From positions 1-51,749 of the forward strand of contig JAICGW010000003.1 in assembly GCA_025922945.1 (NCBI GenBank): a stretch of 51,749 nt of DNA, read 5' to 3'. The position numbers were made by a program, and so were the translations under genes. Positions 4,054 to 10,055 of this stretch are shown here, piece after piece. The DNA comes from Acidimicrobiia bacterium. GTDB lineage: Bacteria > Actinomycetota > Acidimicrobiia > Spongiisociales > ZC4RG35. The notes under the pieces are model-generated. The model ran no database searches, was not told the DNA's origin, and saw only the letters and a list, made by a program, of their open reading frames with translations. The number at the start of each line of letters is the position of its first letter. Position 1 is the first letter of the stretch.

Positions 4054-4621
4054 CGGACCCCGCCTAACTCCCGTCAAGATCGTCGTCGCCGGCGGATTCG
4101 GCGTTGGCAAAACAACCTTTGTCGGAGCCATCTCGGAGATCGAGCCCCTTCGCAGCGAAGCAGTAATGACCCAGGAAAGCGCCGGCATCGATGAGCTGTT
4201 CGAGGGCAATACCAAGACCACGACCACGGTCGCCATGGACTTCGGGCGTATCAGCCTGAAGGGCAATCTGGTGCTCTACCTCTTCGGCACCCCGGGCCAG
4301 GATCGCTTTCATTTCATGTGGCACGAGCTCTCCAAGGGGGCGATCGGGGCCGTCGTCCTGGTCGACACGCGCCGCCTGGAAGCATGCTTTCCGGCTGTCG
4401 ACTTCTTCGAAAAGCTGGGTGTTCCCTTCCTGGTGGCCGTCAATACCTTCAACGGTGAGAAGCTCCACTCCTTAGATGAGGTGGCGACCGCCTTGGCGAT
4501 CAATCCTTCGGTCCCCTTGCTCTACTGCGACGCCCGTCACCGCCTGCAAGTGCAGGGAGCTCTGGTGCAGCTCGTTGAACATGCGTTGACCAGAGCGCTT
4601 GAGGGGGCCGCAGCGCCATGA
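4034..4621 (+). CDS. Conservon small GTPase / ATP-GTP binding protein (CvnD-like)
   Basis: Walker A GGFGVGKTT, LFGTPGQDRFHFMW, VNTFNGE; position in the conservon. Confidence 0.9.
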   Translation: MESRASDGPRLTPVKIVVAGGFGVGKTTFVGAISEIEPLRSEAVMTQESAGIDELFEGNTKTTTTVAMDFGRISLKGNLVLYLFGTPGQDRFHFMWHELSKGAIGAVVLVDTRRLEACFPAVDFFEKLGVPFLVAVNTFNGEKLHSLDEVATALAINPSVPLLYCDARHRLQVQGALVQLVEHALTRALEGAAAP

Positions 4622-5289
4622 GCCAGTGGCCGGCAGGGCGGGGCGAGGCCACCGACCTGACAGTCATCGATGTCGATTCAATCCACCGTGATCTCGAGGA
4701 AACACGGGCGCGGCTGGCCGAGGCGGAGTGGGCGCTGGCTCGACTGGCGTCGTCGGCGGGGCCGATTGAGACCCGGCTACAGGACCTGATTGTTGCCGCT
4801 CGCGATGAGGCCGCTCAGATAAAGGCCGAGGCGCGCCAGCAAGCCGAGAGCCTGGTGCGGGAAGCCGAGCGTTTGCGGGCGATGGCCGGGCAAGCGGCAG
4901 CCGGGGGCAGTGAGCAGGCCAAGAAGCAAATCGCCCAGAAGGTGAGCGAGATGGTGGCCAACGCCGACCAGCTCCGGATCAACTCCGAGCGTCGGGCGGC
5001 GGAGATCATCAGACAGGCTCAAGAGAAGGTGGCGCCGACACAGGCCCGCACCGATGAGCTAGTGCGCCTGATCGCCCGTCAGGAGGCCGAGCTCGGTGAG
5101 CTGCATGCGATGGTGAAGGAAGCCCGCCACAAGGCTGACGCAATCATCCGACACGCCCAGGTGGAGGCGGCGGCCCGGGTGGAGGAGCTGAGCGAACGAG
5201 CCCGGCAGCGGCTCGAAGCCGCCCGCCTCGAGGCCGATCGAATCGTTGCCGCCGCTCACGAACGCGCCCAGCGGATCAGTCCGACCTAA
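4618..5289 (+). CDS. Coiled-coil, DivIVA/ATP-synthase-b-like protein coupled to the conservon
   Basis: ATGA overlap with cvnD-like gene; Ala/Glu/Arg-rich heptad-like sequence throughout. Confidence 0.75.
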   Translation: MSQWPAGRGEATDLTVIDVDSIHRDLEETRARLAEAEWALARLASSAGPIETRLQDLIVAARDEAAQIKAEARQQAESLVREAERLRAMAGQAAAGGSEQAKKQIAQKVSEMVANADQLRINSERRAAEIIRQAQEKVAPTQARTDELVRLIARQEAELGELHAMVKEARHKADAIIRHAQVEAAARVEELSERARQRLEAARLEADRIVAAAHERAQRISPT

Positions 5290-5290
5290 G

Positions 5291-5315
5291 AAGCGGCCCG
5301 GAGGCCGGGCCGCTT
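5291..5315. terminator. Perfect 10-bp stem / 5-nt loop hairpin between convergent genes
   Basis: AAGCGGCCCG-GAGGC-CGGGCCGCTT directly after the stop at 5289; no strong U-tract. Confidence 0.6.
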
Positions 5316-5358
5316 CGATATGGGGTTCAACCCCTGGTTCTATTTGGCTGGGATCGCT

Positions 5359-5859
5359 CTAATCACCGTCGGGTGGGTTGCTACCGCCGGTGGCCACAAA
5401 GCTCACGCAATCACCCTGGTTCTTGAAGACTCCAAAGGTGACCCACCCCCCCTTCTTGCACTGATCCGTGGAGGTGAGGCCCGCGATCAATGTCGTGGTG
5501 GTGGTTGGAGCGGTCGTCGTGGTGGTGGTCGCCAGGGTCGTGGTCGGAGCCGCGGTGGTGGTCGTGGCCGGTGCGAGAGTCGTCGTGGTGGGAGCATTGG
5601 GACCGCTGGGCAAATTGCGACCGCCGGTGACCACATAACTCACGCAATCACCCTGGTTCTTAAAAACGCCGGCGAAGTCCTGCCAGCCGCCTTGTTTGCA
5701 GTCATCGGCATCGTCGAGGCCAGGGATCGTCAGGGCCAGGTTGCTTTCCAGGCCGGGCTGTGAAAGCGCCATCGGCGCAAAGGCGATCAGCGAAATCAGA
5801 ACCCCCAGGCCAACGACCGCGGCTCGCGATCGACGAATGTTCTCCAGGAGTTGTTTCAT
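5359..5859 (-). CDS. Secreted protein with duplicated CKxGGWxxFxVFKNQGDCVSxVxTGGxN module and Thr/Ala/Pro-rich linker
   Basis: ATG at 5859; signal peptide MKQLLENIRRSRAAVVGLGVLISLIAFAPMALS; two copies of the Cys module separated by TTTTLAPATTTTAAPTTT... Confidence 0.85.
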   Translation of the reverse strand: MKQLLENIRRSRAAVVGLGVLISLIAFAPMALSQPGLESNLALTIPGLDDADDCKQGGWQDFAGVFKNQGDCVSYVVTGGRNLPSGPNAPTTTTLAPATTTTAAPTTTLATTTTTTAPTTTTTLIAGLTSTDQCKKGGWVTFGVFKNQGDCVSFVATGGSNPPDGD

Positions 5860-5983
5860 GCAACAACCTTTCCCTCGGGATCCCAAGTAGTGGCGGGATC
5901 TCTTCCACTCTCCGTGGCCAAGACTAGCCGTCTTGGGGTGGGTGCAAAAAGGGCGTCTAGGCCCATCAAGCTACTCTGGACCG

Positions 5984-8539
5984 ATGCCTCCAGACCCGGG
6001 CTCGCGCATACCTGAAAAGCCTGTTCTCGAGGGTCTCGAGGACAAATGGCAGCCTGTATGGGAGGAGCGAGGCTTGTTTCGTTTCGATCGCTCGAAGACC
6101 CGGGAGGAGGTCTTTTCGATCGACACGCCGCCACCCACGGTGAGCGGCCGCCTTCACCCGGGCCACATGTTTTCGTTCACCCACACCGACCTCATCGCTC
6201 GTTACCAGCGGATGCGGGGCAAGGAGGTCTTTTATCCCATGGGCTGGGACGACAACGGGCTCAACGTCGAGCGTCGGGTGCAGCTGATAACCGGGACCAT
6301 CGTCGATCCGAGCTTGCCCTACGACCCCGACTTCGTTCCCCCAGCGGAAGCGCCCAAGCGACCGATCCCGATTTCTCGACCTAACTTTCTCGAGCTCTGC
6401 GAGAGGGTGGTTCCCGAGCTCGAGGCCGAATACCACCAGCTCTGGTCGCGACTCGGTCTGTCGGTCGACTGGTCGTTCACATATACGACGATCGGAAGCC
6501 ACGCGACCTATATCTCGCAGATCGCCTTCCTGGATCTGGTCAAAAGAGACCTCGCCTACCGAGCTGCCGCGCCCACCCTCTGGGACGTCGATATGAAGAC
6601 CGCCGTGGCCCAGGCCGAACTGGAAGATCGGGATGTTCCGTCGGATTATCGGAAGATCGTCTTTCAGGGACCGGAGGGAGAGCCGCTCCTCGTCGATACG
6701 ACCCGCCCCGAGTTGCTCCCAGCCTGCGTCGCGCTGGTCGCTCATCCAGAGGATGCCCGTTACCAGCACTTGTTCGGAAAGCAGGCGCTAACTCCGCTCT
6801 TTGGGGTGAGAGTGCCCATTGTTTCCCACGAGCTGGGCGATCCCGAGAAGGGGACTGGTTTGGCGATGATCTGTACTTTCGGCGATACGACCGACGTCAC
6901 TTGGTGGCGGGAGCTCGGCTTGCCGCTGCGCGCCATCGTCCAGCGGGACGGGACCATGAGACCCGTCAGCTGGGGTAGTGATGGCTTCGAGAGCGATGAT
7001 CCCACCACCGCCCAGAAAGCCTATGACGCCATCTCCGGGCGGAGCACCAAACAGGCGCGGGGGTTGCTGATCGAGCTGCTTGAAGGCGCCGGAAAACTGG
7101 TCGGGGAGTCGCGGCCCATCACACACGCAGTCAAATTCTGGGAGAACGGCGTTCGGCCTTTGGAAATCGTCACCTCCAATCAATGGTTCATCCGCTACCC
7201 CGACCGCGAACAGATGCTCAAGCGGGGCAAGGAACTCAACTGGTACCCCGACTACATGCAGGTGAGGTACGAGAACTGGGTCAACGGGCTGCTGGGGGAT
7301 TGGAACATCACCCGCCAACGATTTTTCGGAGTGCCCTTCCCGGTCTGGTATCCGATCGATGTCGCAGGGGAGGTGGATTTCCTCTCCCCGATCTTGGCCA
7401 CCGAGGACATGATTCCAGTCGATCCCACCACCACCTCCCCGCCTGGGTTCGAGGAGTCGGACCGTGACCAGCCGAATGGATTTGCCGCCGATCCCGACGT
7501 GATGGACACCTGGGCCACGTCTTCGCTCTCACCGCAGATCGTGTGCGGGTGGAACACCGACCCCGATCTCTTTGCCCGCACCTTTCCTATGGATATGCGG
7601 CCGCAGTCGCACGACATTATCCGCACTTGGCTCTTCAGCACCGTGGTCCGCGCTCACTACGAGTTCGACTCTCTGCCCTGGGCCAATGCTGCGATCTCGG
7701 GGTTTGTGGTCGATCCCGATCGAAAGAAGCTTTCCAAGTCCGCCGCTAACGCCGCCGACGATCCGATGACGATGCTGAGGACCTACGGAGTGGACGGGGT
7801 TCGGTACTGGGCGGCGCAAGGAAGGCCCGGAGTCGACATGGTCTTTGACGAGGGCCAGCTCAAAATCGGCCGCCGTCTCGCCACCAAACTGTTGAACGCC
7901 TCCAAGTTCGCCCTCACGCTCAGTGAGGGAGCGAAAGGTCAGCCCACTGTTCTGCTTGATCGAGCGTTGCTAGCCGGTCTGGCGGATCTGGTGGAGGAGG
8001 CGACATCGTCATTCGACCGCTTCGACTACGCCCGGGCGATCGAACGAACCGAAGCCTTTTTCTGGCCCTTCTGCGACGACTACGTCGAGCTTGTTAAGGG
8101 GCGGGCTTATGGCGCCGAGGGCGACGAAGGGACGGAGTCGGCCCGGGCCACCCTGGCCATCGCCATCAAAACCATCGTCCAGCTCTTCGCCCCCTTTCTC
8201 CCCTACGTCACCGAGGAAGTGTGGTCGTGGTTCGAGGAGGGGAGCGTGCATCGCTCTACTTGGCCGTCTGCCACCGACATCCGCAGCTGGACGAGTGAGA
8301 CCGACGACGTCGGGCTGCTTTTGACGGCCGGTCAGGTGCTGTCAGCGATCCGCAAGGTCAAGACCGCCGCCCAGGTCTCGATGAAGGCGGAAGTTGGAAC
8401 TGTCCATATCGTCGGCCCGAATGCGGTTCGCGCCGGGCTGGAGGCTGTCGAAGGCGACTTGCGAAATGCCGGTGTGATTAGCGGCCCCATCACCTTCGGC
8501 GCCGGCGATGAGTTGCTGGTCGAGGCCGTCCTCGTCTAG
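5984..8539 (+). CDS. valS: Valine--tRNA ligase
   Basis: HPGHMFSFTHTD (HIGH-like), YPMGWDDNGLNVERRVQ, YTTIG, LWDVDMKTAVAQAELEDR, KKLSKSAAN (KMSKS-like); ATG at 5984. Confidence 0.92.
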   Translation: MPPDPGSRIPEKPVLEGLEDKWQPVWEERGLFRFDRSKTREEVFSIDTPPPTVSGRLHPGHMFSFTHTDLIARYQRMRGKEVFYPMGWDDNGLNVERRVQLITGTIVDPSLPYDPDFVPPAEAPKRPIPISRPNFLELCERVVPELEAEYHQLWSRLGLSVDWSFTYTTIGSHATYISQIAFLDLVKRDLAYRAAAPTLWDVDMKTAVAQAELEDRDVPSDYRKIVFQGPEGEPLLVDTTRPELLPACVALVAHPEDARYQHLFGKQALTPLFGVRVPIVSHELGDPEKGTGLAMICTFGDTTDVTWWRELGLPLRAIVQRDGTMRPVSWGSDGFESDDPTTAQKAYDAISGRSTKQARGLLIELLEGAGKLVGESRPITHAVKFWENGVRPLEIVTSNQWFIRYPDREQMLKRGKELNWYPDYMQVRYENWVNGLLGDWNITRQRFFGVPFPVWYPIDVAGEVDFLSPILATEDMIPVDPTTTSPPGFEESDRDQPNGFAADPDVMDTWATSSLSPQIVCGWNTDPDLFARTFPMDMRPQSHDIIRTWLFSTVVRAHYEFDSLPWANAAISGFVVDPDRKKLSKSAANAADDPMTMLRTYGVDGVRYWAAQGRPGVDMVFDEGQLKIGRRLATKLLNASKFALTLSEGAKGQPTVLLDRALLAGLADLVEEATSSFDRFDYARAIERTEAFFWPFCDDYVELVKGRAYGAEGDEGTESARATLAIAIKTIVQLFAPFLPYVTEEVWSWFEEGSVHRSTWPSATDIRSWTSETDDVGLLLTAGQVLSAIRKVKTAAQVSMKAEVGTVHIVGPNAVRAGLEAVEGDLRNAGVISGPITFGAGDELLVEAVLV

Positions 8540-8568: not shown

Positions 8569-8582
8569 CAACCTTCGGGTTG
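8569..8582 (+). terminator. CAACC-TTCG-GGTTG tetraloop hairpin after valS
   Basis: Perfect 5-bp stem with TTCG loop, 30 bp after the valS stop, followed by AAGAAAATTT. Confidence 0.45.
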
Positions 8583-8586
8583 AAGA

Positions 8587-8693
8587 AAATTTGGTCACAC
8601 ACGCCCGCTTTTCGGCAAATTTGGTTGCTGGCGACCGGTACTCGTTCGTCAGCTACCGAATTTCCCAGAAAGCGTGCGTCAGCTACCGAATTT
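8587..8693. repeat. Large imperfect inverted repeat made of four copies of a 17-bp motif at 30-bp spacing
   Basis: AAATTTGGTCACACACG (8587), AAATTTGGTTGCTGGCG (8617), and on the other strand AAATTCGGTAGCTGACG twice (8647-8663, 8677-8693); 47-bp arms, about 35/47 identical, 13-nt centre. Confidence 0.85.
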
Positions 8694-8720: not shown

Positions 8721-10055
8721 TTAGGTGACAGCCTCGTTGCGGGCGGCCTCGAGCTTGGCAGTGCTGAGCCGGCCCAGTGCGTAAATCGAAAGACCGGCTT
8801 GGATTACTCCGGCCACGATGAAAGGCGACCGCAACCCGGTGGGGCGGTCGGTGATAGTTGTCACCGATTCGGCCAAGAGACCTCCGAGGAATGCCCCAAT
8901 CGGCATCATCCCCCAGCCGAAGAAGCGGTAGACGCTGTTGACCCGGCCCAGCAAACGGTCGGGAATGATCGTTTGCCGGAGGGAAACGGTCACCACGTTC
9001 CACATGACGGCTCCCAGTGACGTGATGGCGAACATGACCCAGACCAGTACCGCCGAAGATGTGAGCCCGATACCGATAGAGGTCAACGCACCCGTGATCA
9101 ACGTGAACTGGAGGGTCGCTCCCGAACCGAGCCGCTCGGAGAAGCGGGAGGCCACCAAGCTCCCGATGACCCCGCCGGCGGCACCAGCGGTCAGGAGGAG
9201 CCCGAACTCAGATGCTCCCAGCTCGAGGATCTCCTGTCCAAACAGAACGAAGACGGCCAGGGTGGCGCTGCCCAACGCATTGAGGATTCCGAGTATCACT
9301 GCTAGACGACGCAGGAGCGGGTGTCGCCACAGCCAGCGGAAGCCCTCTTTGAGGTCGGTCCCAAAGCCGGATCGAGGTGCGCCCACTTCTCCGGTAACGG
9401 CCCGGAAGTTTCCCTTGAGCAAAAAGAGGATGGCGGCCGACACGGCGAACGTCGTGGCGTCCACGACGAAAGGCAGTGCAAAGGCGATGGCGAGGAGAAC
9501 GCCCGCCAACGGCGGTCCCACGAATGAGTTCATGACCATCTCCGCACCCCAGAGCCGACCATTGGCCCGTTCCAACTGGCTCTTGTCGACCACCGACGGC
9601 ATCAACGTCTGACCGGCGTTATCTCGCAAGACTTCCGCCATCCCCAAGAGCAGGGCCGAAACGTAAATGGTGGTGAGCAGCAGGGTGGGATTGGCAATGG
9701 CGGGGAGTGCTCCACCTTCCAGTTGTTCAGGACCGGGAAGGAGGTCCTGATGGGCAAGCACGATCAGTGCCACGCCGAAGGTGATTACTGCCCGTAGGGA
9801 ATCCATCGTGACCACGAGCCTTTTCCGATCAACGCGATCGGTGATCACGCCCGCGGGAAGAGTGAATACGAGCCACGGAATCCTCGTGGCAACCCCGACC
9901 AGGGCAATGTGGAACGGGTTGCGTGTGACCGCGGAGGCCAACCATGGATACGCCACGAGCGCGACCCCATCACCGAAGTTGGAGATGACGCTGGCCGTCC
10001 AGAGTTTCCAGTAGTTGGAGCCCAGATTGCGCGCAGCCGACGTGGAGGTAGTCAC
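8721..10055 (-). CDS. MFS transporter (drug/siderophore efflux type)
   Basis: FGDGVALVAYPWLASAVTRNPFHIALVGVATRIPWLVFTLPAGVITDRVDRKRLV; 12-TM-like pattern. Confidence 0.88.
   Translation of the reverse strand: MTTSTSAARNLGSNYWKLWTASVISNFGDGVALVAYPWLASAVTRNPFHIALVGVATRIPWLVFTLPAGVITDRVDRKRLVVTMDSLRAVITFGVALIVLAHQDLLPGPEQLEGGALPAIANPTLLLTTIYVSALLLGMAEVLRDNAGQTLMPSVVDKSQLERANGRLWGAEMVMNSFVGPPLAGVLLAIAFALPFVVDATTFAVSAAILFLLKGNFRAVTGEVGAPRSGFGTDLKEGFRWLWRHPLLRRLAVILGILNALGSATLAVFVLFGQEILELGASEFGLLLTAGAAGGVIGSLVASRFSERLGSGATLQFTLITGALTSIGIGLTSSAVLVWVMFAITSLGAVMWNVVTVSLRQTIIPDRLLGRVNSVYRFFGWGMMPIGAFLGGLLAESVTTITDRPTGLRSPFIVAGVIQAGLSIYALGRLSTAKLEAARNEAVT

Follow-up and report, generated by a model that had tools for sequence, protein, structure and literature searches.

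Known palindromic repeats and the layout of the window's element

The RUP repeat unit of pneumococcus, 107 bp long, is a MITE for which IS630-Spn1 has been proposed as the mobiliser; it is intergenic, non-coding and dispersed, has terminal inverted repeats, and shows TA target duplications and termini matching the insertion sequence (PMC2229807). Correia/NEMIS and ERIC are imperfect palindromes of about 100 to 150 bp, dispersed intergenically, with TA termini and target duplications and with an enzyme that acts in trans or is unknown; internal 30-bp tandem sites are not reported for them in the review consulted (PMC2229807). The REP, REPIN, and BIME repeats (GTAG and CGTC palindromes) are palindromic and extragenic, form several subfamilies per genome, lie adjacent to 3' ends where the neighbouring genes are convergent or codirectional, and sometimes donate a stop codon (PMC3733652). 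REP units are stem-loops of 20 to 40 bp with a terminal tag, many of them with a RAYT; the CGTC REPs are said to be without a dedicated transposase (PMC3733652).

The window, by which we mean the whole 51,749-nucleotide stretch of Acidimicrobiia DNA that was analysed, contains a 107-bp element that resembles each of these systems in part. It shares with RUP the length (a coincidence), the terminal inverted repeats, and the intergenic, non-coding, dispersed character, but it has no target duplication, no matching IS was found, and each of its arms holds two tandem 21-bp sites. The general build and dispersal of Correia/NEMIS and ERIC are also found in it, but their termini and duplications are not, and the host phyla are unrelated. 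As regards TA termini of the RUP, Correia, or ERIC type, the copies in the window's own genome start with AAATTT and have varied flanks, and many copies of one subfamily (A) in a congener have TA on one side only. The features listed above for REPs as a group, from extragenic palindromy to stop-codon donation, recur here, but the 21-bp unit is no stem-loop, a RAYT is absent, and the frame consists of four units in 107 bp; GTAG or GACG strings occurred in some units only. The ends of Tn7-type transposons carry several protein sites of about 21 to 22 bp each (22-bp TnsB sites). The presence of several sites per end is an analogy only, and membership is not claimed, as the element has neither TGT/ACA ends nor a 5-bp duplication and no tns genes were seen at any copy. 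An integron attC site, which would have R'/R'' boxes GTTRRRY / RYYYAAC at its ends and an integron integrase nearby, was set aside on inspection, the ends AAATTTGG/CCAAATTT not fitting these boxes.

The first-pass annotation had described four 17-bp motifs, two in each direction at a 30-bp period, and the layout was seen exactly so at 8587-8693, with units at 8587 and 8617 on the plus strand and at 8647 and 8677 on the minus strand. The period stood, but the unit size did not: because of the conservation among copies, the unit was redrawn at 21 bp (AAATTYGGTNRCTGRCGNNCG), the spacers at 9 bp, and the centre, GTACT, at 5 bp, in place of 17+13 (21+9+21+5+21+9+21 = 107). The 47-bp arms (8587-8633 and 8647-8693), put by the annotation at about 74% identity around a 13-nt centre, turned out to be identical at 35 of 47 positions (74%), with ACCGGTACTCGTT between them, and the runner-up inverted repeat of equal shape in the whole 51.7-kb window reached 26/47. 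The RNA folding z-score of the 107 nt was -7.6. The convergent setting that had been named was likewise found, valS (plus strand) ending at 8539 and the MFS gene (minus strand) at 8721. The motif count in the window, 4 matches against 2.9 expected, is not significant alone, and the reality of the element follows from the spacing and the genome-wide copies, not from that count. The sequence CGGTACTCG at the centre is asymmetric and invariant in 9/9 copies; the element therefore has an orientation. The features are as follows.

5933..8539, plus strand: valS, valyl-tRNA synthetase, context (Pfam PF00133, PF08264)
8587..8693, plus strand: 107-bp palindromic dispersed repeat, oriented by CGGTACTCG (9 genomic copies; arms 35/47)
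8587..8607, plus strand: outer left unit AAATTTGGTCACACACGCCCG (alignment of copies)
8608..8616, no strand: 9-bp spacer CTTTTCGGC (alignment of copies)
8617..8637, plus strand: inner left unit AAATTTGGTTGCTGGCGACCG (alignment of copies)
8638..8642, no strand: centre GTACT; CGGTACTCG spans 8636-8644 (invariance of CGGTACTCG, 9/9 copies)
8643..8663, minus strand: inner right unit AAATTCGGTAGCTGACGAACG (alignment of copies)
8664..8672, no strand: 9-bp spacer, CTTTCTGGG on the minus strand (alignment of copies)
8673..8693, minus strand: outer right unit AAATTCGGTAGCTGACGCACG (alignment of copies)
8721..10055, minus strand: MFS transporter gene, context (Pfam PF05977, PF07690)

A stem-loop without a T-run, CAACC-TTCG-GGTTG, lies at 8569-8582 between valS and the element, which it adjoins.

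Copies, subfamilies, and orthologous junctions

A search of the full genome had been proposed as a check, and the element proved not to be single copy. In the window's own assembly (G000; 2.56 Mb, 179 contigs, 94.6% complete), a DNA search gave seven loci besides the window copy, and a covariance model of eight aligned copies added a ninth. The nine copies occupy unrelated intergenic loci and have sharp borders, with no flanks in common outside the 107 bp (the C60/C96 match lies mostly within the element), and two-unit arms were found in this genome solely within 107-bp copies, save for one chance-type match with three mismatches. Identity among the copies was 66 to 93%, the closest pair being the window copy (C3) and C42; a divergence of 7 to 34% does not support recent movement. 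Five of the nine lie between convergent genes (C3, C42, C60, C27, and C7), four between codirectional genes or tRNAs (C4, C96, C165, and C148), and none between divergent genes; the automatic context call is blind to tRNAs, and C165 and C148 were assigned with tRNAs considered.

The sole congener compared, the MAG Acidimicrobiia bacterium MGR_bin69 (G001), carries at least 33 elements in several subfamilies, as found by a geometric scan of fetched stretches. The automatic call placed 11 of them between convergent, 18 between codirectional, and 4 between divergent genes, the numbers for gaps in general being 12, 23, and 15. Among the 33 parsed elements, 22 were exactly 107 bp and 4 were 106 bp long, counts that are description and not a test, given that the scan mildly favours 107 bp. 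The unit cores differ by subfamily (e.g., GTCCTGTGGCGAACG, GGCAGGTGAGGAACG, GGCACTACATCCGTG, and GGCGTCCCATTGCCG), and AAATTYG and the 30-bp period are kept. From one subfamily to another the four cores change together, at a length that remains close to 107 bp. Across subfamilies, the four units of an element have their core in common, with a within-element identity of 0.55 to 0.67 versus 0.41 to 0.47 between. At locus C36 of the congener two units are identical across 21 bp, which supports a unit of that length.

Copies of subfamily A in the congener (L069, L070, L077, and L081) have about 40 to 90 bp of flanking DNA in common, so that this genome also has composite repeats of larger size; the outer units of this subfamily carry CCTGTGGCG on one side and, on the opposite side, CGCCACAGG, which is its reverse complement. 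At C36 (L117, about 4080-8390) there is also a transposon of the IS1595 family, with GGTAATAATATACTTGACTCACC as a perfect terminal repeat and a cargo of PIN-domain and DNA-methylase/Mrr-type genes. It was rejected as the mobiliser, as its own ends (GGTAATAATATAC) differ from those of the repeat, and it is a later passenger, sitting inside one repeat unit with an 8-bp duplication, CAAATTTG.

The two-unit pattern AAATTYG-N23-AAATTYG was matched 14 times in G000 and 19 times in G001, and not once in the 136 other genomes searched from that family or order. In the wider class, G144 and G146 gave pattern matches that lack the unit sequence; the reversed control matched equally often in G146. The covariance model applied to 58 relatives agreed with this distribution. 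On present evidence, the repeat family thus appears confined to one small genus of Acidimicrobiia. No element was found in phage, plasmid, and viral-contig searches; the single viral pattern match (L116) was rejected as AT-rich sequence in which the second arm is absent. A literature search for such dispersed repeats in Acidimicrobiia found nothing relevant.

Two orthologous junctions were compared, neither of which gives a base-exact empty site. The hyuB-glcD pair is syntenic in three of the four relatives checked, and the element is absent from all three, the gap being about 40 nt in G006 and holding other DNA in G010 and G001. In G000 the element starts directly behind TPGGGGWG, the conserved end of HyuB, and provides the hyuB stop codon, a TGA within the element. 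G001 also has the convergent pyrF/DUF4015 pair, whose DUF4015 part is 81% identical where it aligns; about 500 bp of different DNA occupy the place of the element. Since these congener junctions are without the element and the hyuB copy provides the stop codon, the element was probably inserted. At hyuB/glcD, insertion in G000 rather than loss elsewhere would be much the simpler reading; at pyrF/DUF4015, loss in relatives is also possible. For valS and the MFS gene, DNA comparison gave no match in G001, and the genes are apart from each other in G010, G013, and G015, so that there is no empty site for the window's copy. The G001 hyuB/glcD junction (L179) contains a gene cassette of about 1 kb with the inverted repeat TTTTTATCACCAAA / TTTGGTGATAAAAA on its flanks, which may be a separate small mobile cassette, and the DUF4015/pyrF gap of that genome (L152, 957-1468) holds, by eye, a HicB-like reading frame where the repeat would be.

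Conserved sites and base pairing

Of the 28 anchor columns (AAATTYGG), 25 were invariant, versus 14 of 70 columns elsewhere (p = 2e-10). With the full 47-bp pairing imposed, the number of pairs changed on both sides was 3, fewer than the shuffle mean of 6.4, and RNAalifold found no such pairs. The arms of one copy were no more alike than the arms of different copies, both in G000 and in subfamilies A and B of G001. These tests covered 8 or 9 copies in G000 and 6 or 7 per congener subfamily, and related copies are not independent. Judged from these alignments, the unit sequence is conserved as DNA sites and not for base pairing, since the anchors are nearly invariant and arm covariation is absent within subfamilies.

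The structured RNA that the first-pass annotation had considered accordingly lost ground, there being no compensatory changes beyond shuffles and no match of the element in Rfam. The same two results weigh against an RNA hairpin that would terminate transcription in both directions or stabilise mRNA 3' ends, a reading that we consider improbable. Most copies fold strongly, as such a hairpin would, but C60 folds poorly (z = -1.5), and neither a T-run nor a terminator call is present. The excess of convergent over divergent settings also suits it, but REPs show the same 3'-end bias (PMC3733652), and for this reason the bias alone does not show a terminator.

A multi-site protein array, another of the early options, held up as the likely anatomy of the element, in which the anchors are conserved and pairs do not covary; the binding protein would be a putative one. 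Such an array could serve the host, with four copies of a nucleoid, replication-fork, or transcription-roadblock protein bound about three helical turns apart at 3' ends. The anchors conserved without pairing, the strict 30-bp spacing, and the 3'-end bias would all agree with this, but several unrelated cores within the congener are hard to square with one protein, the two species do not share positions at either locus compared, and the family is limited to one genus; we therefore regard a host array as unlikely, if somewhat less so than the terminator. Several cores in one genome within the same 107-bp frame fit families of mobile elements better than one host protein. It had also been held that a single copy, no conservation, and no covariation would speak against the element; only the last of these was found.

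Probable mobility of the repeat family

The reading that we favour, with a probability of roughly 0.6, is that of a palindromic insertion element in the MITE/REP class, non-autonomous and restricted to one genus, with two tandem sites in each arm. The dispersed REP/MITE-like element suggested at first thus gained support from nine copies in G000, at least 33 in the congener, and absence at orthologous junctions. Like MITEs, it is short (107 bp), non-coding, and dispersed, with 47-bp terminal inverted arms. No target-site duplication, for which a check had been suggested, was found when flanks were compared at 2 to 10 bp and all offsets up to 3. No autonomous element with the same ends was found in G000 (94.6% complete), and a transposase survey covering the Y1 type (Y1 transposase/RAYT, PF01797) was negative in both carriers, G000 and G001, with positive controls. 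The element is filed as neither MITE nor REP, and "MITE-like" is preferred, because some MITE tests and some REP tests came out negative.

Since the searches revealed neither a target-site duplication nor an autonomous element nor a REP-type tyrosine transposase, we infer a mobilising enzyme, which would be a transposase or recombinase acting in trans. The two tandem 21-bp sites of each arm, at their 30-bp period, would be read by a DNA-cutting protein, and the same protein would presumably both bind the units and move the element. In the simplest mechanism, the protein would read each unit, and element and protein specificity would shift together, as in transposon families. Having come to rest close to the 3' ends of genes, where selection may tolerate them, most copies would be passive.

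The element might instead be the single-strand hairpin substrate of a tyrosine-type recombinase, in the manner of REP and RAYT or of an attC-like site. It is palindromic and intergenic, it lacks a target-site duplication, and its centre is asymmetric and conserved, all of which would suit such a substrate; but neither carrier genome has a PF01797 protein, arm covariation is absent, and the units lack the form of short, GTAG- or CGTC-tagged stem-loops, so we give this reading little credence.

Within the favoured reading of a MITE-like insertion element, this is a new family among the known small palindromic dispersed repeats, and its modular architecture is unusual: from family to family the sequences of the four evenly spaced sites differ, but the spacing is constant. 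Tentatively, and with the odds clearly against it, the family could stand for a class of palindromic mobile repeats with four 21-bp sites in a rigid 30-bp phase, whose cores switch together between subfamilies and on which an undescribed recombinase acts as a four-site complex. If the mobilising protein is found, the four-site assembly would be directly testable through the 30-bp phase. The repeat accounts for local differences where genes end, for example the new C terminus of HyuB, and its co-resident subfamilies, with fixed geometry and a swapped core, could be used to study how the specificity of an element shifts along with that of its recombinase.
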